A stretch of DNA of 64,000 nt from Flavobacteriales bacterium. GTDB taxonomy: Bacteria > Bacteroidota > Bacteroidia > Flavobacteriales_D > Crocinitomicaceae. How positions within the stretch are numbered: the first letter of the stretch is position 1; every line of letters starts with the position of its first letter. This document shows, one piece after another, positions 44,207-55,363 of the stretch. Where the stretch lies: positions 1 to 64,000 of the forward strand of contig CANFRV010000005.1 of the NCBI GenBank assembly GCA_947449575.1, in the 5' to 3' direction. The translations under genes were made by a program, and so were the position numbers. The notes below the pieces were generated by a model. That model made no database searches and was not told the origin of the DNA. It was given only the letters and a program-made list of their open reading frames with translations.

Positions 44207-45772
44207 TTACTGTTTAATAATTTTTTTAATAGTATTGTTGGATTTTTGTTTAATCCATAAAAAATACGATCCTGCATTCAATTCTTCTACATTTAAACAG
44301 ATTGAATCTTCAAAATATTCTTTACTGAAAAGAACTTTCCCACTTAGATCTATGATTCTTATCTCAGTAGTTTCACTGCTTTTTAATTTTATATTCAACT
44401 GACTTTCAAACGGGTTTGGTTGAATCGTGAAATCTGAATCATTCACATTCTCTAATTCATTTACACCTATTATTTGTGATACAGTTTGTGTTCCGCAGTG
44501 ATTTTGAGACGCTAAAGTAACCGTATAATTACCAAATGATGGAAAAGTATAACTTGGACTTTCCACAATAGTATTCTCCGGACCAAAATTCCAATAATAC
44601 GATAAATCAGTGTTACTCGATGTATTCGTAAAATCAACTTGTAATCCATTCATTGTATATGTATAGCTCATATTGGGCAATGAATCAATGATTATATAAA
44701 TATCCGCGGTTGCTTCAAAATCGCAAATACCTCCAGAGGTGGAGATTGTCACAATAAATGTCCCAGATTGAGTGGGAGTTCCATCAATAGTGAAAACCCC
44801 ACCTGAGAAATTTCCTATTACCCCAGACGGTAATGGTCCTCCAGAAACACTTCCTTCAGAAACCCCAATCGTAGAACTTGAACCACTAAATCCAAATGTA
44901 ATTGGAGAAATCGAAGAGGTCAAACAAACTGTTTGTGAATCACTTAGTAAGGCAGAAGTTAAATACAAGGAGGACGGCGCCGCAACATGTACCATAACAG
45001 AATCAAAAGCAGTGCATGTATTTATAGTGACTGTATATGAAATAATAACACTCCCTTCTGCTATGCCTGTTACAAAACCATTGACATCAACAGCAGCAGT
45101 TAAGGGGTCCGATGACAACCATTCTCCATTTGGAGTTGAGTTTAATAAAGAGACAGATGAATTTACACAAATAGTTGCATCACCCGTATACGGATCTTGG
45201 CCAAAAATATCGGCTACAATAGGTAAAGGAAGTACGGTAATATGTATGGTATCAATAGATTGACAACTTCCATTTGTAATGGTATAGCTGATCACTTCAG
45301 TACCTTCTGATACTCCCGTCACAACACCATCCAAATCTACATCAATTACTAAGGGGTTGGATGTCGACCATGATCCACCAACTGAGGTTGCAGATAGAAT
45401 AATACTTCCGTTTAGGCACACAAAAGGAGGTCCAGAAACGGGAATTATTGGAATCATTTCATCGACTATAATCGGAAAATTAGTTACTATTGAACTTGCA
45501 TCTGTATAATAAATATCGCAGGTTCCAGAGGAAATTCCGGTCACCATACCCATGTTATCGACTGTTGCGATGGATATGTCTGAGCTAGTCCAATCTCCTC
45601 CAGGATTCGGATTTTCTAGCATTAGCGTCGTTCCTGCGCACAGGGATGTCGATTGAGCTGTTGAATACGTTGAAAAAATAACAAGAAAAGAAAAGAAAAT
45701 TATTTTCCTGACTGATTTTATAGAGAAATTATTAAACCGGCTGAATCTACTACTACAAGACATTACATTCAT
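44207..45772 (-). CDS. T9SS-secreted protein with Ig-like/PKD domains
   Basis: About 521 residues. ATG 45793 lies inside the -7 box (45791-45798), so I take ATG 45772; ATG 45763 is possible. Signal region with KSVRKIIFFSFLVIFSTYSTAQ. Three bacterial Ig-like type 2 modules follow (recurring GGDWTSSDISIATVD, GGSWSTSNPLVIDVD, NGEWLSSDPLTAAVD patterns), then an adhesin-like module and a PKD module (YYWNFGPENTIVESPSYTF). The last 75 residues are a T9SS type A sorting domain (FTIQPNPFESQLNIK, GSYFLWIK). Monocistronic. Probably a surface or secreted protein of unknown binding partner. Confidence 0.84.
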   Translation of the reverse strand: MNVMSCSSRFSRFNNFSIKSVRKIIFFSFLVIFSTYSTAQSTSLCAGTTLMLENPNPGGDWTSSDISIATVDNMGMVTGISSGTCDIYYTDASSIVTNFPIIVDEMIPIIPVSGPPFVCLNGSIILSATSVGGSWSTSNPLVIDVDLDGVVTGVSEGTEVISYTITNGSCQSIDTIHITVLPLPIVADIFGQDPYTGDATICVNSSVSLLNSTPNGEWLSSDPLTAAVDVNGFVTGIAEGSVIISYTVTINTCTAFDSVMVHVAAPSSLYLTSALLSDSQTVCLTSSISPITFGFSGSSSTIGVSEGSVSGGPLPSGVIGNFSGGVFTIDGTPTQSGTFIVTISTSGGICDFEATADIYIIIDSLPNMSYTYTMNGLQVDFTNTSSNTDLSYYWNFGPENTIVESPSYTFPSFGNYTVTLASQNHCGTQTVSQIIGVNELENVNDSDFTIQPNPFESQLNIKLKSSETTEIRIIDLSGKVLFSKEYFEDSICLNVEELNAGSYFLWIKQKSNNTIKKIIKQ

Positions 45773-45790
45773 AGTTTTATTGATGCGATA

Positions 45791-45798
45791 CAAACATA
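45791..45798 (-). promoter_or_regulatory. -7 promoter box TATGTTTG of the T9SS Ig-like gene
   Basis: TATGTTTG on the minus strand; it overlaps the first in-frame ATG (45793), which argues for a downstream start. Confidence 0.5.
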
Positions 45799-45860
45799 GA
45801 GGATAATTTTTAATAAATCGCTAAATCAGAGAAATCATCTTATAATTGCCACGAAAAACT

Positions 45861-46946
45861 TTATTTATATTCCGGAAATAAACTTAAAAGACCTATTTCT
45901 GAAGCATCGCATACGCCTCTTTCGGTGATTATTTTAGTGACTAAACGAGCAGGGGTAACATCAAAACCATAATTACTCGCTGGAGTAGTTTCAGGACAAA
46001 TCAAAATATTTCCAATTTTCCCATCCGCTCCTTTTCCGATTACATATCTGACCTCATCTTGGTTGCGCTCCTCAATTGGAATTTCAGTTAATCCATTATG
46101 AATCGTCATATCTAAAGTTGTAGAAGGCAGCGCGACATAAAAAGGGATATTATTGTCATTGGCCGCAAGCGCTTTTAGATAGGTACCAATTTTATTGGCA
46201 ACATCCCCTTGACGTGTTGTTCTGTCTGTGCCAACAATCACCATATCAACCATGCCATGCTGCATTAGATGTCCTCCAGCATTGTCTACGATTAAAGTAT
46301 GTGGAACGTTGTGTTTTGTTAATTCGTAGCAGGTTAAATTTGAACCTTGGTTACGCGGACGAGTTTCATCCACCCAAACATGTACTTTTATTCCTTTCTT
46401 CATCGCATGATAAATCGGAGAAGTAATTGTTCCCCATTCAACACAGCCCAACATTCCAGCATTGCAATGGGTTAAAATATTGACAACCTCTCCTTTTTTT
46501 CTATGTGCTATTTCTTCAATTATTGGTAAACCATGTACACCAATCATTCGACAGGTTTCTACATCCTCTTCAACGATAGCAGCTGCCGCTTCCCAACTCG
46601 TAGTAAGAAAATCTCCTTCGCAATTATCGAGGGCATTGAGCATTTTATCTAATGCCCAAAATAAATTTACTGCAGTTGGCCTAGAAGCACGTAGATCAGA
46701 GAAAGCTTGGTCTAAAAAAGCGCCATCTAATTGTTTTTCAATCATTTCGCGGACTGCTAAATAAATTCCATACGCTGCAGTTGCCCCAATTAAGGGAGCT
46801 CCTCTAACCGTCATTTCTTTGATCGCAACTTCGGCATCCTTGTAGGAAGTTAATTTTACAACGACAAATTCATGTGGTAATTTTCGTTGATCAATTACCT
46901 CTACGTATTTATCTTCTGTAGGCCAAATGGTTCGAAATTTTGTCAT
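45861..46946 (-). CDS. mtnA: Methylthioribose-1-phosphate isomerase
   Basis: Methionine salvage: methylthioribose-1-phosphate to methylthioribulose-1-phosphate. 361 residues with TVRGAPLIGATAAYG, catalytic Cys161 (THCNAG) and Asp241 (GTDRTTRQGDVANKIGTY), spacing as in B. subtilis MtnA (Cys160/Asp240). Follows mtnC by 62 bases on the same strand. Confidence 0.94.
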   Translation of the reverse strand: MTKFRTIWPTEDKYVEVIDQRKLPHEFVVVKLTSYKDAEVAIKEMTVRGAPLIGATAAYGIYLAVREMIEKQLDGAFLDQAFSDLRASRPTAVNLFWALDKMLNALDNCEGDFLTTSWEAAAAIVEEDVETCRMIGVHGLPIIEEIAHRKKGEVVNILTHCNAGMLGCVEWGTITSPIYHAMKKGIKVHVWVDETRPRNQGSNLTCYELTKHNVPHTLIVDNAGGHLMQHGMVDMVIVGTDRTTRQGDVANKIGTYLKALAANDNNIPFYVALPSTTLDMTIHNGLTEIPIEERNQDEVRYVIGKGADGKIGNILICPETTPASNYGFDVTPARLVTKIITERGVCDASEIGLLSLFPEYK

Positions 46947-47008
46947 TTTTAGTCGAATTTTTATACATCTATTTAATTATACAACAAGTGCAGGCTAAAA
47001 GATCCGTT

Positions 47009-47710
47009 CTAATTATTCAAAGATAAATCAATCTCATCAAAACTAGAAACACTTTTTTTCCATGCTTTCACAGTGCCTTCGCGCACCAATTGAATGGTTT
47101 GAAATCCAGCCTGATCTGCCGCTTCTAACTCTTCTCTAATATCAGATAAAAAGAGAATTTGAGAAGGGGTGATTTGTAATTCTTTACTTATTTTTACATA
47201 GGTGTCTACTTCTCTTTTACCTCCTGTATTTGTGTCGAAATAAGCGCTGAAATGAGCACTTAAATCGCCTTTTTCACTATATCCAAAAATCAATTTTTGA
47301 GCGGCAACTGAACCAGAAGAAAAAACACCTAGTTGAATTCCTTCCTTTTTCCATTTTAGTAAATTGGGTGGCACATCAGAATAGACATGTCCTTTTATTT
47401 CACCGGATTTATACCCTTCATTCCAAACGATTCCTTGTACGGTTTTAAGCGGGGTTATTTTCTTATCGGCAATACTCCAATCCAATAATTGTTGAATAAT
47501 TTGATCTGCATCATCTAAGAAAACACCTTCTTTTTTAGCTAATTCAACCGTTTGTTCAAAAGCTTTCTGAACTTCTGGCAATTGCTGAAGGTTTTTTAAT
47601 GTGCCAATATTATGTCTAAAATAGGGAAAAAGAGATTCATAAACAAAAGAAACAGATGTAGTTGTCCCTTCGATGTCAGTTAATATAAACGCTATTTTTT
47701 CTTGACTCAT
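47009..47710 (-). CDS. mtnC: Enolase-phosphatase E1
   Basis: Methionine salvage: enolises and dephosphorylates 2,3-diketo-5-methylthiopentyl-1-phosphate. About 233 residues from ATG 47710; the longer frame from 47779 would start upstream of the promoter. HAD motifs ILTDIEGTTTSVSFVY (Asp12, Glu14), GVFSSGSVAAQ and FLSDIREEL; the DxEGTT box is specific for MtnC. The -7 box at 47715-47722 places transcription at or next to the ATG, so the mRNA may be leaderless. Confidence 0.92.
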   Translation of the reverse strand: MSQEKIAFILTDIEGTTTSVSFVYESLFPYFRHNIGTLKNLQQLPEVQKAFEQTVELAKKEGVFLDDADQIIQQLLDWSIADKKITPLKTVQGIVWNEGYKSGEIKGHVYSDVPPNLLKWKKEGIQLGVFSSGSVAAQKLIFGYSEKGDLSAHFSAYFDTNTGGKREVDTYVKISKELQITPSQILFLSDIREELEAADQAGFQTIQLVREGTVKAWKKSVSSFDEIDLSLNN

Positions 47711-47714
47711 GCAG

Positions 47715-47722
47715 CAAAGGTA
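47715..47722 (-). promoter_or_regulatory. -7 promoter box TACCTTTG of mtnC-mtnA
   Basis: TACCTTTG on the minus strand only 4 bases before the ATG at 47710; the start codon coincides with the predicted +1. Confidence 0.5.
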
Positions 47723-47802
47723 TAAATCGTCTGTTGATAACTTTACATTCCCATTAAAAATATATCTAAAAAAGAACAATTAATTTTACGTACTCACAAA
47801 AT

Positions 47803-48396
47803 ATGAAAAATATGAAAAAACTTATTTACATCTGTTTAGCAATTACACTAATTACTTTTTCTTGTACGATAGAAAAAAGAATGTACAATTCTGGTTACCA
47901 TGTGAAATGGAATGGGAAGGATTTCAACTCTGAAAAAAATAGTTTCAGTGCCGCGGAGGATGATAAAAAGGAAAAAATAACTGAATCAAAAATAACAAAT
48001 CTTGATCGAAATAATAGTTCAAAAGTGGAGCCCTCTTTTGGCCAACCACAACTAGAAAATACTTTTTCAAATGCGACATCTTTTCATTCTACATTGCAAA
48101 AAGTTGCGGGAGAAAAACGCAAGAGTTTACCAAGTAAAATAACTTCTGTTCAAAAAGAAAATTCAATTCCAAAAATTAGTCCTTTAAAAAAATCTGAACA
48201 TAAATCAGGTAAAAAATCACTTTCCGATGATTTGCTACTTATCTGTTTTATTCTTTGTTTTATAATACCTCCTGTCGCAGTTGGTTTAATAACAGATTGG
48301 GATATAAATAAAGTTTTACTAAATTTATTATTGACTATTCTTTGTGGAATCCCGGGTATCATTCACGCATTAATTGTTGTGTCTGATAATAGATAG
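47803..48396 (+). CDS. Lipoprotein with C-terminal YqaE/Pmp3-type membrane domain
   Basis: 197 residues. A lipoprotein signal ends ITFSC (Cys21). Residues about 22-140 are a polar, Lys/Ser-rich low-complexity linker starting EKRMYNSGYHVKW. The last 55 residues contain two membrane helices matching the Pmp3/YqaE (UPF0057) pattern: ICFILCFIIPPVAVGL and LLLTILCGIPGIIHALIVV. Free-standing Pmp3 proteins are about 50 residues; here the domain is fused behind a lipoprotein signal, an arrangement I know from Bacteroidota stress-type proteins. Function unknown. Followed 7 bases later by a DUF2752 gene. Confidence 0.75.
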   Translation: MKNMKKLIYICLAITLITFSCTIEKRMYNSGYHVKWNGKDFNSEKNSFSAAEDDKKEKITESKITNLDRNNSSKVEPSFGQPQLENTFSNATSFHSTLQKVAGEKRKSLPSKITSVQKENSIPKISPLKKSEHKSGKKSLSDDLLLICFILCFIIPPVAVGLITDWDINKVLLNLLLTILCGIPGIIHALIVVSDNR

Positions 48397-48403
48397 TTAA
48401 ATT

Positions 48404-48694
48404 TTGAAAAAAACCAGATTAAAAATAATTTTAGGGGGAATGATTGTCATGCCATTGATCTTGATAATCATTCCCTCTACTTTTTTTGATAAAGGCCAAT
48501 CTATTTGTGTTTCCAAATTCCTGTTCAACAAAGAATGTTTAGGTTGTGGAATGACAAGAGCAACGCAACATCTGATACATTTTGATTTTCGAGAAGCGTA
48601 TGCGTTTAACAAATTATCAGTTATTGTTGTTCCAATTCTCATTTATTTTTATGTAAGAGAATTTTGGAAAATGTACAGTAGATTAAAGAAGTAG
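48404..48694 (+). CDS. DUF2752-type small membrane protein
   Basis: 96 residues from TTG 48404 (ATG 48440 would drop 12 residues of the first helix). Two membrane helices (about 8-26 and 70-88) flank the family motif ECLGCGMTRATQHLIHFDFREAYAFN (quoted here only as CLGCGMTRA and FDFREAYAFN), the Cys-x2-Cys-Gly-x-Thr-Arg signature of DUF2752. No function is known for the family. Probably cotranscribed with the upstream Pmp3-type lipoprotein gene. Confidence 0.8.
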   Translation: MKKTRLKIILGGMIVMPLILIIIPSTFFDKGQSICVSKFLFNKECLGCGMTRATQHLIHFDFREAYAFNKLSVIVVPILIYFYVREFWKMYSRLKK

Positions 48695-48722
48695 ACTGCG
48701 CAACTGATTTCGATCAATCTAT

Positions 48723-48746
48723 TAACCTCAGTTCGATTAATATTTT
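48723..48746. repeat. 24-bp dispersed element, copy 2
   Basis: TAACCTC-A-GTTCGATTA-A-TATTTT, 22 of 24 positions identical to 33963-33986. Confidence 0.5.
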
Positions 48747-48838
48747 GCAATAGGTAAATAGTAGACATGACTGCTTAATTAACCCACAACGTTAGCATTT
48801 TTGAATAGCAATGTAAATAGGAAGCTTCAATTATTGAT

Positions 48839-49381
48839 TTACATACATCCTTGCGAATCTATTTTACCCGTAAATAGGATTGTTTCATTTTGCTTTATTA
48901 CAACCGAATAGGGTTCTCCCATATCAAGAGAAAAGTCTTTTGATGTGAAGGTCAACTCATCTATCAATTCAAAATTCTCTTTTTTAAACACTTGTTTATT
49001 ACCCTTTTTAATAATGAAAGATAATTCTTTCCCTGACCCAATAAGCGTTAAATGATGAAAATCCTCAGAATCGTAACAAAATGTATAGGTGTGTTCTTTT
49101 CGGAATGTTGATCTTTCATCAATAGTTGCTTTTGTCGTCTCGCCAGTTTCTTCATCTGTTATCTCCGACCCTTTAAAAAACAGTTTACAAGAAACATTGG
49201 CAGGCTCTAATTTTTCTACCTCCTCACTAATGGTTGCTGTTGTATCTTTTATGCTATCAGTGCTAACTTTTAAAGTATCAGCAACAGTATTTACAGCATT
49301 TTTTTCACTTGAACTATTACAACTTGTAACAGCAATTGCAAAGACTAGCAATGGCAAGAAAATGGTCAGTATTTTTTTCAT
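48839..49381 (-). CDS. Putative lipoprotein, unknown function
   Basis: 180 residues from ATG 49381 (MKKILTIFLPLL), chosen over the upstream ATG at 49459 because it gives a classical lipoprotein signal ending AVTSC. After a Ser/Thr/Asp-rich linker (about 22-60) comes a beta-rich domain from about residue 65: CKLFFKGSEITDEETGE, YTFCYDSEDFHHLTLIG, FTSKDFSLDMGEPYSVVIK, ending SQGCM. I recognise no family. It stands alone on the minus strand. Confidence 0.65.
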   Translation of the reverse strand: MKKILTIFLPLLVFAIAVTSCNSSSEKNAVNTVADTLKVSTDSIKDTTATISEEVEKLEPANVSCKLFFKGSEITDEETGETTKATIDERSTFRKEHTYTFCYDSEDFHHLTLIGSGKELSFIIKKGNKQVFKKENFELIDELTFTSKDFSLDMGEPYSVVIKQNETILFTGKIDSQGCM

Positions 49382-49603
49382 TTTATTTAATTTAACATCT
49401 CTCCTACTCATAAGGCTTTTCAGTTCCGCCCCGTTTTTATAGTGGTTTCTGGTCTCCACTTTTGGTGATAAATTTTTTAACGTATTTTCTAAAAATAGTC
49501 AACGTTATACTTTGGTATTTCTCTTTTTTCAGTGTATTGGCGATGCCGCGAAATCCAGTAAATGCGAAAGAGCTATTGAGTTTGCACGTTGCAGGGGCTG
49601 GTT

Positions 49604-50143
49604 TTATTTTATCATTTCTACTACTTTGCTAAACTCTGAATTAATATCAATCTGAATGCGTTTCATTTCTTCTTTATCTTTTATTTCAGAAGATATGGAA
49701 GGAGTGTCTCCATTGCACTCATTTGATTTATTCAAAATTTTAATTATTTTTCCATTTATATCATAATATGTTCTATACTCATCGCTGCAGGACTCTGCTC
49801 CCGTACTTTGAAAGACAAAGAAAATTTTATTGTTTTTTAAATAGAATATTGTTTCACTTGCCCATTCATATCCACAGAATTTTGCTCGATAGGTACTATA
49901 CTCTTTTGAAATATGACAAAGTTCAGCTGTTTGTTCGAAGGGTACTTGCTCAGAATTTTCATCAAACCCTTCATAACTAGTATTTTTACCCGTTTTACAT
50001 TGTTTCGATGTATTTGCATTACTTAGTTTGTTGACTTCTCCGTACATTTTTTTTATGTCCAAAATCCTAGATGAATTATCTTGGGAATAACAGGAAATAA
50101 AAATAGAATTCACGATTAAAAAGATACTGATGGAATACTTCAT
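49604..50143 (-). CDS. Putative lipoprotein, unknown function
   Basis: 179 residues. Signal MKYSISIFLIVNSIFISC with a lipobox-like IFISC. The mature part has a charged helical start (ILDIKKMYGEVNKL), a Cys-containing middle (SKQCKTGK, ELCHISKEY, KFCGYEWA), FYLKNNKIFFVFQ and a C-terminal helix. The layout of strands after a helix resembles small periplasmic domains of Bacteroidota but I cannot name a family. Confidence 0.6.
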   Translation of the reverse strand: MKYSISIFLIVNSIFISCYSQDNSSRILDIKKMYGEVNKLSNANTSKQCKTGKNTSYEGFDENSEQVPFEQTAELCHISKEYSTYRAKFCGYEWASETIFYLKNNKIFFVFQSTGAESCSDEYRTYYDINGKIIKILNKSNECNGDTPSISSEIKDKEEMKRIQIDINSEFSKVVEMIK

Positions 50144-50417
50144 TTGGGTTTAATTTTTTATGAGATAATTTAGAGGTAGGTTCATAATTTTTTGTTAAAG
50201 ATAAATTTAATTTTTAGATATTCAAATTATCAAAAAATATTTTTCAATTACCGAGGTTTCTGCACTAATTTTAGCGCACAAACAGTCATCTGCAGTTTTC
50301 TTAATACCTTAAATAATTTGGATATCTAGAAAATAAAAACTAAGTTTAGCATTGATTTTTTCTGGGAGTAGTCCGAAAATCCGTAAGAGTTAGGAACGAT
50401 AAATTAAAAATGAAAAA

Positions 50418-50750
50418 ATGAAAAAACTATTTTGTCTCACAGTATTGCTAATCTCTTTTTCGGCAAACTGCCAAACCGTATTCTCCGTCAGTTCAAAATA
50501 CGATGCAGATGTGAAAATATTTGTGGCAAGTTCAAAATATGACGCCGATCTAATCGTCTATAAATGTTCCTCAAAATATGATGCGACGGACAACAAAGGC
50601 TTATGGTTTTTTGTAGACAGTAAATACGATGCTAAAAAGAAGGTGTTTTTTTGTGATAGTAAATACGATGCAGATCTAATTATTTATTTTACAGATAGCA
50701 AATACGATGCTAGTTGGAGAAATACTGCTAAGAAAAGTTTTTTATACTAA
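50418..50750 (+). CDS. SKYDA-repeat exported protein, 7(1) septoil-knot (DUF6150-type) family
   Basis: 110 residues: signal peptide 1-19 (ending FSANCQ), then a mature protein of about 91 residues built from six SKYDA motifs, each between short hydrophobic strands (VKIFVAS, LIVYKCS, GLWFFVD, KVFFCD, LIIYFTD). The period is 13 residues, except 16 between motifs three and four, where DNKGLW is inserted; SWRNTAKKSFLY closes the chain. Seven strands around six identical turns match, as I remember it, the small family once called DUF6150 and now the 7(1) septoil knot, predicted and later shown to form a seven-crossing topological knot. Predicted periplasmic or secreted; function unknown. Monocistronic. 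Confidence 0.8.
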   Translation: MKKLFCLTVLLISFSANCQTVFSVSSKYDADVKIFVASSKYDADLIVYKCSSKYDATDNKGLWFFVDSKYDAKKKVFFCDSKYDADLIIYFTDSKYDASWRNTAKKSFLY

Positions 50751-50906
50751 CCCCCTACTTCAGTTTTTTCAGAGATTAAGATGTGTAACCTCATCAAAAA
50801 TAAGAAATCTACTAGGTATTGACTAGTTCTCTTTCACAGATGAATATATCCAGGTAAAATGAAAAATGAAGGGCGGAAATAGAAAGGAATATTACTTCGA
50901 AAACTT

Positions 50907-50914
50907 TATATTTG
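50907..50914 (+). promoter_or_regulatory. -7 promoter box TATATTTG upstream of the ankyrin gene
   Basis: TATATTTG, 96 bases before the ATG at 51011; fits TAnnTTTG. Confidence 0.4.
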
Positions 50915-51010
50915 CTGCTAAAAATCGATTATACCCAAACTTTGTAGTTTAGTGTTTCGCTTAATAAATACATTATCAAGCAAATACAAGCTTATAAAAC
51001 AATATCAATA

Positions 51011-52084
51011 ATGAAAAACAATTATAAAAAAGTCCTTTATTTATTTTTAATGATGATCTTTTCATCACCAATATTTAGCCAGAAAATTTTTAATGATATT
51101 CAAAATGGTAAGTATGATAAAGTGAAATCATGGATGGATAAGCAGGATAAAATAAATGAAACGTATTCAAAAACATCTAATGAAAGAGACCTTGTTAGAG
51201 AGTTAAATATTATTGAATGGGCTGCTTTCTATAATGAAACCGAAATTGTTAAACTATGTATAGAAAACAAAGCTAAGTTTGATTTTTTTGAAGAATGGAT
51301 TTCGGCAGCATTAGGAGCTGGAGTGCACAATTGTAATATTGAACTTACTAAAATACTCCTTGATGCAGGAGCTGATCCAAGTATTACTTGTCAAATGTGT
51401 AGAGAAGCGAGTTTATTAGGCATTGCTCTAAGTTATGATTGTATGGAAAACTATAAGTTGCTAAAAGAAAATGGAGCACCTTTGATTTCTGAAAACCCTG
51501 GGTATGATGTTATTCATGTTGCAGCGCGCAATCCAGATCTAGATTTTCTGATTGACTTGGTTGAAAAAGAAAATGTAGATGTGAATGAAAAGGGAACTGA
51601 AATTGCGTATCCTATATTTATGGCTGTTGATAGCGGAAGAGTTGAAAATATAAAATACCTGGTGTCGAAAGGCGCAAAATTGGATGTTACCGATCAATTT
51701 GGGAATACTATTTTACATTGCATTAATGATTTAACAACATTTAAATTTTTTGAACTGCTTTTATCTACTTCTGACATGTCATTTGAAAAGGCTGATAAAG
51801 CAAGCCCATTGATATTGTCAATTATTTATGCAGACAATAAAGAACTTTTTGATTATTTTATTGCTAATTACAGTTCATTTCTAAATGCGAGAGATAAAGA
51901 TGGAGAAAATGCAATGTTTGCTTTGCTAGAGATTGAAAAAAATACCGATTATTTCTTCTCTATCTTAAAGAAAAATAATATCTCATTCACGCAAAAAAAT
52001 AAGTTTGGAAAAGATTTGAAGCACTATGCAAAAAAAATGAAAAACAAAACACTTTTGCACTTAATTAATGAAAATGATAACTAA
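51011..52084 (+). CDS. Exported ankyrin-repeat protein
   Basis: 357 residues with a signal peptide 1-23 (LMMIFSSPIFSQ). About eight ankyrin-type repeats follow: NIIEWAAFYNETEIVKLCIE, NIELTKILLDAGADPS, GIALSYDCMENYKLLKENGA, VIHVAARNPDLDFLIDLVE, PIFMAVDSGRVENIKYLVSKGA, NTILHCINDLTTFKFFELLL, SPLILSIIYADNKELFDYFI, and a degenerate last one. Ankyrin repeats bind other proteins; an exported version suggests a periplasmic or extracellular partner. No partner gene is evident. Confidence 0.82.
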   Translation: MKNNYKKVLYLFLMMIFSSPIFSQKIFNDIQNGKYDKVKSWMDKQDKINETYSKTSNERDLVRELNIIEWAAFYNETEIVKLCIENKAKFDFFEEWISAALGAGVHNCNIELTKILLDAGADPSITCQMCREASLLGIALSYDCMENYKLLKENGAPLISENPGYDVIHVAARNPDLDFLIDLVEKENVDVNEKGTEIAYPIFMAVDSGRVENIKYLVSKGAKLDVTDQFGNTILHCINDLTTFKFFELLLSTSDMSFEKADKASPLILSIIYADNKELFDYFIANYSSFLNARDKDGENAMFALLEIEKNTDYFFSILKKNNISFTQKNKFGKDLKHYAKKMKNKTLLHLINENDN

Positions 52085-52374
52085 CCACAAATGCACTTTC
52101 ACTTTATCCTTGCTTTTCAATTGCAGTAAGTAGAACCGAACTTGGAGTTTACTATTTATAAGAGCCCTTAGAAAAAGTCCTTCATTTTTTATTGTTTCTT
52201 TTAATGAAAGCATTATCTTTGAAAATAGATTCTAACCAATATAAGCAATGTTTTGTTACTAGTAGTTTTGCATTCATTTTAGATGCTTCTAAACATTTAT
52301 TATTTATTCGAAGAATTGAGAGCGGATACCGAAAAGCTCAAAAGAGAGTAGGTAATGTTACTAATTTGTTTTTT

Positions 52375-52737
52375 ATGAAAATATTATTTTTTTCAGCCTT
52401 TATTTTTTGTTCCTCTTTATCTTATTCTCAATTTTTAGAAGATGGTAGTTATACTTTTACAGATGGAGGGTTATATTCTTTAGACCTAGAAGTGTGCGAA
52501 GGAGGTGAATCAATTTGCTTTTTTACTTTTAAGCATGATGAAAATGTAGTTGACAACCTTGAATCGGGTGAATGGTTTCGTGTTAACCTCAATGGTGTTG
52601 ATGAAAATTACGATGGACCTGATGGCTGGTATCAAATCTCCTCTGAAACTGAAAATTATGAATTTGAAGAATTAAAGAACAATAAATATAAATTAGTTCG
52701 AGGTGAATTTGAATATATTATGACCTTAAAAAAATAA
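52375..52737 (+). CDS. Small acidic secreted protein, unknown
   Basis: About 120 residues from ATG 52375, where a clear signal peptide (MKILFFSAFIFCSSLSYSQ) begins; the frame extends upstream to 52192, but that part is not signal-like. The mature protein is acidic and beta-rich with one cysteine pair (EVCEGGESICFF), GVDENYDGPDGWYQI and a C-terminal strand. No family recognised. Confidence 0.6.
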   Translation: MKILFFSAFIFCSSLSYSQFLEDGSYTFTDGGLYSLDLEVCEGGESICFFTFKHDENVVDNLESGEWFRVNLNGVDENYDGPDGWYQISSETENYEFEELKNNKYKLVRGEFEYIMTLKK

Positions 52738-52870
52738 ATGTTTTTTCAAGGTCTAGCAGTAAAAAATGTGATAAAGATAAGTGACTAAAAAGTATCCTCT
52801 AATACGCCCCTAGGATTTATATTATTAAATTCTTATATTTATAAAACATAAACGAGAGTAATATTGGATA

Positions 52871-53635
52871 ATGAAAGGGGCCGTTAAATATAGTAAGGGA
52901 ATTATCGCAGTACTTATACTTCTTCCTTTCTTCTCTTTGTCTCAAAAACCAAAAAAAAATCCGGAAGGAATTAGCCTAAATTTTAATCATTTTGTCGGAG
53001 ATAAGTTGTTGGTGTTAGATGATACAACGTATGTAAATGAGTTAAATCAAGCGTACATTGTTACAAAATTCAATTATTATATTGGCCAAATTTATTTACT
53101 GAAAGATAATGGGAAAGAATATAGTATTCCGAATCATTTTTTAATTTCAGAAGATAAGATAGAAACAAAAAAAATAGTGTTGGAAAAAATTCCCTCTGGC
53201 ACGTATACTTCCATTCGTTTTATTTTGGGAGTTGATAGTTTACACAATTGCAGTGGGGCTCAATCAGGGGCTTTGGATCCAATAAACGCCATGTTTTGGA
53301 CGTGGAATACAGGGTATATCTTTTTAAAGTTAGAAGGAAAATCTACTTTTTCATCCGCGATTGGAAATACATTAGAATATCATATTGGAGGCTACAAGAT
53401 GCCTAATAATTCGATTCGAACTATTACTTTACCATTCGAGAATCCTATCGTTATTGAAAAGAAACGAATGACCGAAATAAATCTTAAAGCGGATATTTCT
53501 GAAATATTAAAAGCGCCAACAACGATTGATTTCAAGACAACGCCAACGGTGAACACTTTATTGAATGCAAAAATGATCGCGGATAATTATTCAGATATTT
53601 TTACGATTATAGGTATTAATGGTATTAAATACTGA
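52871..53635 (+). CDS. MbnP-family protein (copper-binding type)
   Basis: 254 residues with a signal peptide 1-24 (LILLPFFSLSQ). The mature protein starts LNFNHFVGDKLLVLDD and carries the MbnP-type central block HNCSGAQSGALDPINAMFW followed by TWNTGYIFLKLEG. In the methanobactin-linked homologue, MbnP is a secreted copper protein in which the di-haem enzyme MbnH oxidises a Trp to kynurenine; several Trp candidates occur here (FWTW). A di-haem enzyme gene starts 3 bases downstream, which supports the assignment. No methanobactin peptide gene is visible. Confidence 0.8.
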   Translation: MKGAVKYSKGIIAVLILLPFFSLSQKPKKNPEGISLNFNHFVGDKLLVLDDTTYVNELNQAYIVTKFNYYIGQIYLLKDNGKEYSIPNHFLISEDKIETKKIVLEKIPSGTYTSIRFILGVDSLHNCSGAQSGALDPINAMFWTWNTGYIFLKLEGKSTFSSAIGNTLEYHIGGYKMPNNSIRTITLPFENPIVIEKKRMTEINLKADISEILKAPTTIDFKTTPTVNTLLNAKMIADNYSDIFTIIGINGIKY

Positions 53636-53638
53636 GAC

Positions 53639-54688
53639 ATGAAATCGAGATCCATTCTTTTATTTAGCCTGTTTATTGTGTGCTCAATTTTGCTAAGTGT
53701 TATGAATGATGAAAATCCTTATTTCAAGATTTCAAAAAAAGATGTAAAACTGATTATACCTAAAAATTTTCCTGCGCCATTTTATTCTTTTAAAAATAAT
53801 CAAATTACACCTGAAGGTTTTGTATTAGGAAGGGAATTATTTTATGAAAATCTACTGTCTCGGGATAATTCTGTCAGCTGTGGAAGTTGTCATCAAAGAA
53901 TCTCTGCTTTTGCTCATATAGATCACACCTTGAGCCATGGAATTTACGGTAGAATTGGAAACCGAAATATACCCTCTTTACAAAATCTAATTTGGAATAA
54001 TTCATTTATGTGGGATGGCGGTGTCACGAGCCTAGAAATGCAGCCGCTTGCTCCAATCAATAATCCTTTAGAAATGGATGAAACCATTGGAGGAATTATA
54101 GGAAAATTGGAAAATTCGGTTAAATATCGAAATTTGTTCAAAGATGCATTTGGAGACACACTAATAAATTCTGAAAGAATGCTAAAAGCGTTGACACAAT
54201 TTGTGGGGCTGATGATTTCGAATAATTCAAAATATGATAAATATATTGCGGGGAAAGCGGTTTTTACTCAGGAAGAAAAGCATGGTTTAGAACTATTTAG
54301 AACAAACTGTGCTAGCTGTCACACAGAACCATTGTTCACTAATAATAGTTTTCGAAATAATGGCTTAACTCCAGATTCCACGTTGCATGACATTGGGCGC
54401 GAAAAAATTACCACAAAAGCAAGTGATAAATATTTGTACAAGGTTCCGACTCTGCGTAATATTGAAATGACCTATCCGTACATGCATGATGGACGTTATC
54501 GAAAATTAAAAGACGTACTCAATTTTTATGGAACAGCTGAACAACATACTTCTTCAGCAGACCCGTTCGTAAAAAAAATAAGTTCACTTGATTTTACTGA
54601 AAAGACAGATCTTATTTTGTTCTTGCTAACCTTAACAGATAAGGAATTTCTATTTGATAGAAGGTTTGCCGACCCCAATACGAAATAG
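53639..54688 (+). CDS. Di-haem cytochrome c peroxidase/MauG-like enzyme (MbnH type)
   Basis: 349 residues; the N-terminal hydrophobic segment (6-22) is a signal peptide or anchor. Two haem c sites: SCGSCH near residue 80 and NCASCH near 225, the CcpA/MauG layout, with RNIPSLQNLIWNNSFMWDGG and VPTLRNIEMTYPYMHDGRY motifs typical of the superfamily. It is encoded 3 bases after the MbnP-like gene, so its likely job is oxidative modification of that partner rather than peroxide removal; a plain peroxidase cannot be excluded. Ends at the terminator 54705-54735. Confidence 0.85.
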   Translation: MKSRSILLFSLFIVCSILLSVMNDENPYFKISKKDVKLIIPKNFPAPFYSFKNNQITPEGFVLGRELFYENLLSRDNSVSCGSCHQRISAFAHIDHTLSHGIYGRIGNRNIPSLQNLIWNNSFMWDGGVTSLEMQPLAPINNPLEMDETIGGIIGKLENSVKYRNLFKDAFGDTLINSERMLKALTQFVGLMISNNSKYDKYIAGKAVFTQEEKHGLELFRTNCASCHTEPLFTNNSFRNNGLTPDSTLHDIGREKITTKASDKYLYKVPTLRNIEMTYPYMHDGRYRKLKDVLNFYGTAEQHTSSADPFVKKISSLDFTEKTDLILFLLTLTDKEFLFDRRFADPNTK

Positions 54689-54704
54689 AAATCTCAGACA
54701 AAAA

Positions 54705-54735
54705 AAATCCCGATTTGAAATTCAAATCGGGATTT
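54705..54735. terminator. Bidirectional terminator, perfect 13-bp stem
   Basis: AAATCCCGATTTG pairs with CAAATCGGGATTT around AAATT, with an A-run on the left serving as U-tract for the minus strand. Separates the convergent di-haem enzyme gene and rplY. Confidence 0.9.
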
Positions 54736-54754
54736 ATGTATTCTAAAATATAAC

Positions 54755-55363
54755 TTATTCTGCAGATTCAGTTTCTTCCTCTTCAACAACATCGTCGTCG
54801 TCTTCAGCTGGTTTAACAGCCCCACGAGCCATACGAACAGAAACAACTACAGAAGCATGAGGATCTAAAATCGTTACACCTTCAATATTAACTTGTCCAA
54901 CACGAATAGATTGACCAATTTTAAGATTCGTAATATCTAACGTAATTGCGTCTGGAATAACACCAGGTAAACCAATTACATTTAAATTACGGTATGATTG
55001 CATTAATTTACCACCACTCATAACACCACGAGCAGAACCCGTTAAACGAATTGGTAAAGAAACTCTAACTGGACGAGAATCTTCTAATTGAAGAAAATCA
55101 ACATGTTGGATATTTCCTTTCACAGGATGTTGTTGTAATTCACGAACAACAGCCATCGCTTTTTTACCATCGATATTTAATTCGAATTGAAATACTTCCG
55201 GAGAGTAGATTAATCTTTCGATATCAATATTTTTTACAGAAAAGTGAGTTTGTTCACCTGATCCATAAAGTACACAAGGAACCTGACCAGAATTTCTAGT
55301 CAATTTAGCATCCTTTTTCCCTACGTTCGCTCTTGGCGAACCGCTCAATTGTGCAATTTTCAT
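54755..55363 (-). CDS. rplY: 50S ribosomal protein L25, long Ctc type
   Basis: Binds 5S rRNA. 202 residues: an L25 domain (1-95; SGSPRANVGKKDAKLTRNSG, PCVLYGSGEQ, HVDFLQL) and a C-terminal Ctc domain (95-185), then an acidic tail (EDDDDVVEEEE). Thirteen bases after prs on the same strand, the usual partner order. Confidence 0.93.
   Translation of the reverse strand: MKIAQLSGSPRANVGKKDAKLTRNSGQVPCVLYGSGEQTHFSVKNIDIERLIYSPEVFQFELNIDGKKAMAVVRELQQHPVKGNIQHVDFLQLEDSRPVRVSLPIRLTGSARGVMSGGKLMQSYRNLNVIGLPGVIPDAITLDITNLKIGQSIRVGQVNIEGVTILDPHASVVVSVRMARGAVKPAEDDDDVVEEEETESAE

Follow-up and report, generated by a model that had tools for sequence, protein, structure and literature searches.

The stretch of Flavobacteriales DNA analyzed here (64,000 nucleotides, hereafter the window) contains an intact open reading frame of 110 codons with an ATG start at positions 50418-50750 of the forward strand, whose product carries the five-letter word SKYDA six times over. 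How such a protein folds, and why a single word is repeated throughout it, are the questions raised by this locus. The initial annotation had taken the product for an exported member of a renamed DUF6150 family, tied in a 7_1 knot. The Pfam profile PF19647 (DUF6150) matches the protein over profile positions 3-96 of 98 with 139.3 bits (E 4.4e-41) for a cut-off of 27, and the protein is a full-length member of the family, from which no difference was found. The membership is thus established and the renaming unconfirmed, as the Pfam copy used gives the function as unknown and a literature search returned no paper naming DUF6150, PF19647 or septknot. NCBIfam gave no match near its cut-offs for the window protein, PADLOC holds no DUF6150 family, and neither the window copy nor two copies from viral contigs has a PHROGs family.

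Read by eye, residues 1-18 or 1-19 resemble a Sec leader ending in ..SANCQ (residues 1-18, 50418-50471, forward strand), in line with AlphaFold pLDDT values of 53-65 for the first 20 residues. A leader-like start is seen, again by eye, in many relatives, and export of the window protein is likely. The six words occupy residues 26-30 (50493-50507), 39-43 (50532-50546), 52-56 (50571-50585), 68-72 (50619-50633), 81-85 (50658-50672) and 94-98 (50697-50711), all on the forward strand. All six are exact and, as annotated, their spacing is 13, 13, 16, 13 and 13 residues, the repeat that follows word 3 being three residues longer.

The AlphaFold model of the window protein, built from 20 sequences, reaches a mean pLDDT of 89.2, and from residue 21 onward there are blocks of 90-98; of the five models, three lie at 88.6-89.2 and the remaining two at only 69.5-70.3. 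The strands span residues 20-23, 32-36, 45-49, 62-65, 74-79 and 87-92, followed by a two-residue bridge near 99-100, which agrees with the seven short strands described initially, and three-residue helical turns lie inside the words. A Foldseek comparison of the model with the PDB placed 8iwa, 8iwb and 8jrm, all entries of Q9PR55 from Ureaplasma urealyticum, on top with weak E values from 0.014. VIA-align superposed the model on 8iwa_A with a Z of 6.5 and an rmsd of 2.3 over 62 residues, corresponding to residues 23-84 of the Q9PR55 chain; 4 of 261 chains reached Z 2, and the matches listed comprise the three Q9PR55 entries only. A second model, of a protein of the YESQA type from the same genus, served to probe whether SKYDA is needed for the fold and displays a pLDDT of 90.8 (87.8-90.8 over all five models). 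Here too the Q9PR55 entries lead the Foldseek list, with E from 0.0025, and they are the only VIA-align matches among those listed (367 chains), with a Z of 6.3 and an rmsd of 2.3 over 62 residues. VIA-align itself rates a Z near 6 as middling, and the Foldseek TM-scores are low for both models, about 0.27 and 0.37, with an rmsd near 10.

The predicted DUF6150 fold thus matches the knotted core of Q9PR55 at 19-26% identity, and no match from DUF6150 was found at the sequence level: phmmer searches with the window protein, with a DUF6150-like protein from L023 (whole and its first 71 residues) and with L011, as well as searches with the profiles A1 and A2, gave no 8iwa match up to E 10. Unlike Q9PR55, the DUF6150 protein bears a leader and is built of 13-residue repeats with a word, and its core needs 84 residues for the same 62. 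In the BFVD viral fold library, the best E was only 0.81.

The knotted core of Q9PR55 is given as residues 27-83 (Brems 2022), and its structure, solved later and originally by Hsu and colleagues, is a 7_1 knot according to a JACS 2026 review. The 62 aligned residues (Q9PR55 23-84) cover this core completely. The window protein is therefore probably tied in a seven-crossing knot, as first proposed; the matches of two models to Q9PR55, together with the pooled covariation described below, strongly suggest it. The knot is well supported rather than proven, and its exact type, 7_1, is what we infer from the models. A torus-type knot of lower order is quite improbable. In such a 5_1 knot, the short last strand would let the chain end slip and leave five crossings, as published for P73136, the predicted 5_1 homologue of Q9PR55 (Brems 2022), which by its description is of the same torus-knot kind with one winding fewer. 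The seventh strand of the window model is indeed two residues long, and a numerical seven-strand curve advancing by two sevenths at each step, closed at random 12 times, gave 5_1 in 4 cases and 7_1 in the other 8. Against five crossings, all 62 residues of Q9PR55 23-84 align, including those at both ends of the 7_1 core. With an advance of one seventh, 11 of the 12 closures ended in the unknot; eight-strand curves, being degenerate, were ignored. As described in PNAS 2026 (PMC13123833), the Knotted Solenoid (3_1) is likewise a knotted coil of short repeats; by that description, it differs in forming a trefoil through one skipped coil, in being a homodimer and in its restriction to one bacterial group.

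If seven equivalent repeats form a 7_1 knot, the chain winds the torus seven times while going twice round, so that spatial neighbors are repeats three or four apart, and this T(2,7) geometry requires the words to follow each other round the ring in the order 4-1-5-2-6-3 (the star path). A plain unknotted beta-solenoid would instead place repeat i beside repeat i+1. The short repeats with one strand each would suit a solenoid, and AlphaFold can err on topology and ignore topological barriers (PMC10672856). We compared the two orders by mean-field direct couplings between equal word positions (1-4) in 236 proteins (effective number 88). The star path ranked 4th of 360 orders and the sequential order 166th. 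With other pseudocounts or weights, the star ranked 3-6, and its median rank was 5 of 360 over 60 subsamples. When the genome-contig set was left out (177 proteins, with the viral-contig copies kept), the star ranked 15th and the sequential order 89th of 360. In small subsets, the star fell to ranks 22 (the 48 newest proteins), 35 (genome contigs) and 146 of 360 (L141-L224), and in the last of these the sequential order did better, at 85. Couplings between strand columns, which exclude word positions 1-4, ranked the star 13 to 206 of 2520 and the sequential order 1177 to 1852 with all proteins; in the smaller set without the genome-contig proteins, the ranges were 15 to 45 and 761 to 1351.

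A simpler identity statistic ranked the star 2nd and 3rd of 360 for the first 184 proteins and, at word positions 1, 2 and 4 of 48 fresh proteins, 17th (raw) and 79th (centered). The residue preceding the word leans the other way, with the star at 288 (raw) and 357 (centered) of 360 and the sequential order favored at 34 and 49. Versions of the statistic that include this residue were rejected, the star not being favored (38 of 360 raw, 92 centered). This statistic was run on seven position subsets and then on four for the fresh proteins, and the conclusion is drawn from the couplings. Proteins with gaps relative to the window layout were dropped beyond 2 gaps for the identity statistic and the aromatic counts given below, beyond 5 for the couplings, the subsamples and the scaffold tree, and beyond 6 for word identity and shuffles. 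The star order came first in no covariation test. Pooled covariation nevertheless favors the T(2,7) neighbor order over the sequential one, some subsets excepted, and the neighbor order proposed here is accordingly a statistical one. Given these ranks, and since both models match only Q9PR55 entries among the PDB matches listed, the solenoid appears highly improbable.

The most distinctive feature of the protein, missed by the initial annotation, is that its word is private. The relatives repeat other words, among them QSYNA, RESYA, NQAYA, YKSDA, YESQA, YENQA, YESRA, AEYKA, ADYKA, VASRA, NRSEA and SEWKA, beside SKYDA itself. Among 66 cluster representatives, which were sampled by profile, the identity of repeats within a protein is 0.82, 0.64, 0.84 and 0.83 at word positions 1, 2, 3 and 4; the corresponding repeat compared across proteins gives 0.29, 0.28, 0.26 and 0.25. 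The pattern is reversed at strand positions 7, 9 and 11, with 0.15, 0.36 and 0.15 within proteins and 0.61, 0.76 and 0.74 between them. The word values were reached by none of 500 shuffles, which ignore relatedness; positions 0, 5, 8, 10 and 12, outside the word, also beat all 500 by smaller margins. Six identical five-letter words occur in 13 representatives, five in 16 and four in 12, so that 41 of the 66 repeat a private word in at least four of six repeats. Position 3 is a single residue in all six repeats in 49 of the 66 and varies in 17. No word occurs twice in 7 of the 9 viral-contig representatives. As the viral-contig words are mostly mixed and 17 of 66 others vary at position 3, the fold does not require word identity.

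Such uniformity might be maintained at the DNA level, by gene conversion or by recent expansion of the repeats. In 79 genes (5571 pairs of word copies; 2 of 81 genes were dropped), the mean codon identity between word copies of one gene is 0.533, against 0.467 expected from local usage. There is a slight excess, with 63 of the 79 genes above expectation, as DNA copying would produce; its size argues against copying as the main cause, and the strands stay repeat-specific, so that conversion tracts would have to skip them every 39 bases. With codons near random between copies, the words are held alike mainly by selection on the protein and not by recent DNA copying, which we regard as a very improbable explanation.

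Whole sets of words differ between otherwise similar proteins. The proteins of L190 and L201 are 94% identical at strand positions and have no word letter in common. In tandem clusters, neighboring genes carry different words: RESYA, NQAYA and RESYA in L165, NQAYA, VASRA and RESYA in L166, and YKSDA and ADYKA for the neighbors in L167 and L168. At identical scaffold residues, 67-75% of codons are alike between RESYA and NQAYA neighbors and only 50% between YKSDA and ADYKA neighbors. A tree of 107 representatives built from the scaffold alone, over which 40 consensus words are distributed, implies at least 59 word changes, a rough count because the tree is poorly resolved, with 61 of 104 inner branches open.

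In L166 (3381-3698 and 751-1086), a small protein shares the leader of its DUF6150 neighbor nearly letter for letter and is unlike it in the mature part, as if leaders and mature parts were recombining in islands of small exported proteins. Two divergent DUF6150 genes lying close together in one genome (L040:1405-1797 and L044:1408-1794) have no repeated word and could serve as an outgroup. At L023:982-1701 (minus strand), a leaderless DUF6150-like protein continues from its YAYEA-type repeats into a linker rich in serine, followed by a hydrophobic segment and a weak match to SH3_3.

One idea, an interleaved ring of two laps in which neighboring words touch, would explain why the models match Q9PR55, why the couplings favor the star order, why a word is repeated and why words differ en bloc. 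In the reading that we favor with modest confidence, the gene would encode a small exported protein whose chain goes round a ring twice. Seven parallel strands would line one side of the ring, and six returns, each bearing a word, the other. Each repeat would move on by two sevenths of the ring, tying the torus knot T(2,7), that is, the 7_1 knot. Consecutive repeats would then not be neighbors, and each word would pack against the words on either side in the ring order 4-1-5-2-6-3, so that a changed word would fit only with changed neighbors. We infer that packing of this kind underlies word identity: within one protein, it would hold the words alike and still allow the full set to switch from protein to protein.

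A somewhat unlikely alternative retains the same fold and gives packing no part: the six words would be alike since all bind the same ligand, and paralogues with different words would bind different ligands in a lectin-like manner. Among the consensus positions 1, 3 and 4, exactly one is aromatic (Y, F, W or H) in 83.8 of 95.9 weighted proteins, with polar partners; the aromatic residue lies at position 1 in 37.5, at position 3 in 43.2 and at position 4 in 3.1, while 6.7 have two and 5.3 none. Such a composition is compatible with binding, as are the different words of tandem paralogues on a nearly equal scaffold, and the leader and the patchy presence of the gene suit an outward role. However, independent sites should allow mixed intermediates, yet position 3 is uniform in 49 of 66 representatives, and star-order coupling is what contact between words predicts. 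Six equal binding sites and packing may also act together. Within the ring of packed words that we prefer, a first guess at the role is that identical motifs, presented on a rigid and very stable ring, bind some extracellular partner, a guess based on the leader, on the one aromatic and the polar residues of each word and on the turnover of words.

DUF6150 is widespread and patchy. Within the genus, 7 of 12 genomes carry PF19647, as do 23 of 59 near relatives; across the order, it is found in 205 of 399. Two other carriers belong to orders in which 16 of 164 and 2 of 98 genomes have it, and a further one to a class with 7 of 244; a draw from the phylum gave 20 of 395, and all 14 control genomes were negative. 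Scanning named genomes gave at least 593 matched stretches, 569 of those listed encoding a relative; among the best 80 of these 569, the titles are Bacteroidota, with few Chlorobiota and some only "uncultured bacterium". A tblastn search of plasmid and phage records with the window protein found no match, and 16 of 76 pattern-matched stretches of IMG/VR viral contigs encode a relative. Leader-bearing genes lie on viral contigs at L134:3357-3725, L136:2660-3040, L138:6001-6336 and L126:5959-6288; the words of the viral-contig copies are mixed, save in L126 and L127 (YKYDA), and the gene of L138 adjoins a PHROGs glycosyltransferase match. The window genome has a single copy, as do all seven carriers of the genus, with words of at least six kinds; two of them, G004 and G011, each mix YANQA- and YENQA-like forms.

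No gene order is common to the seven genus carriers over the stretches of 3.5-14 kb compared. What comes nearest is that, both in the window and in the close relative G002, a DUF2752-like gene lies some 2 kb upstream (35% identity over 55 residues). Window positions 47803-48393 and 48404-48694 hold a Pmp3-type membrane segment on a lipoprotein-like N-terminus, with a DUF2752 protein beside it. G002 aligns to window positions 45513-48174 (95.9%), 48455-48644 (86.9%) and 52811-55131 (93.6%). The intervening block that holds the gene (48645-52810) is missing beside these matching flanks, where the alignment gives way to other genes, and the gene is therefore accessory. The copy of G002 itself lies on another contig, and the 3201 bases around it match the window genome on the downstream side only (1088 bases, 90%), apart from three matches of 34-47 bases.

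In the window, the gene lies among other small proteins with leaders, as the initial annotation noted, and next to one for an ankyrin-repeat protein. The latter, exported-looking and encoded at 51011-52084, matches the PADLOC candidate PDC-M72A (E 1e-19), perhaps only through its ankyrin repeats. A comparison of gene neighbors across 81 loci identified no general partner gene, the commonest neighbor cluster being present in only 11. About seven loci share an arrangement with same-strand genes near 0.6 kb and near 1.2 kb upstream, which we take to be methyltransferase-like and RimM-like, respectively. The presumed RimM-like gene lies upstream on the same strand in L056, L062, L063, L080, L083, L088 and L089; L088 has SRYDA in all six repeats and the other loci mostly SKYDA.

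The proposal that the gene forms its own transcription unit is consistent with its geometry, the upstream neighbor being divergent and the flanking gaps measuring 274 and 260 bases, and with a weak RNA match; simple promoter and terminator scans at the gene gave nothing above shuffled sequence. The RNA match belongs to an upstream element common to G002 and the window genome, GAAAATCCnTAAGAGT, which was found through the short matches; the 12 genomes of the genus contain it 8 times, in 4 of them (reversed control, 0). Rfam identifies the element as DUF805 (RF03081) or DUF805b (RF02914) RNA, which is cis-regulatory; weak matches to families other than DUF805 were treated as chance. The scores are 64.4 bits in L007 (G002) and 70.6 in L194 for a gathering threshold of 51.1, and 35.6-38.0 bits for four genes in L165, L166 and L169 for a threshold of 35.6, and those of six further DUF6150 genes fall under gathering. 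Placed matches include L007:1365-1434, L022:1371-1438, L166:2228-2260, L169:659-691 and L194:529-597. Overall, the element sits directly upstream of 12 of 84 other DUF6150 genes scanned and ends 12-21 bases before the start in all 12; one set of 40 loci in the scan, some with little upstream DNA, gave no element. In the window, a candidate DUF805b-like RNA at 50363-50395 (forward strand), which holds GAAAATCCGTAAGAGT, ends 22 bases before the start codon and scores 18.1 bits against RF02914, below the gathering threshold of 35.6 (E 0.01 in 351 bases).

Because the same element stands before dispersed DUF6150 genes with different words, one control element appears to serve the genus and some relatives. 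It also precedes genes other than DUF6150 in the window genome (L315, L316) and may mark a regulon shared across DUF6150 and other genes. At L320 (G001:C13:8861-8876, minus strand), the element lies 17 bases before another gene, presumably for a microbial rhodopsin. Among the papers found to mention DUF805, none has a title concerned with the RNA. Even if the knot is already recorded, our searches point to no earlier description of the word rule, of the covariation test or of a link between DUF6150 and DUF805 RNA.

The word rule makes an otherwise unexplained knotted fold testable. The only solved 7_1 knot that we found is a single protein, Q9PR55, and DUF6150 adds relatives in the hundreds, most of them from Bacteroidota, that bear leaders and offer an internal sequence rule open to word swapping. 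An unlikely, speculative extension is that the family is code-like: the 7_1 ring would show one recognition word six times, bacteria would diversify by swapping all six at once on a fixed scaffold, the word would name the partner, and the knot, by forcing two laps into one interlocked ring, would make the word all-or-none. With natural paralogues as controls, the family gives access to the purpose and the folding of the knot and to the evolution of coordinated six-fold changes; for some species, the cis-regulatory RNA also offers a handle on when the protein is made.
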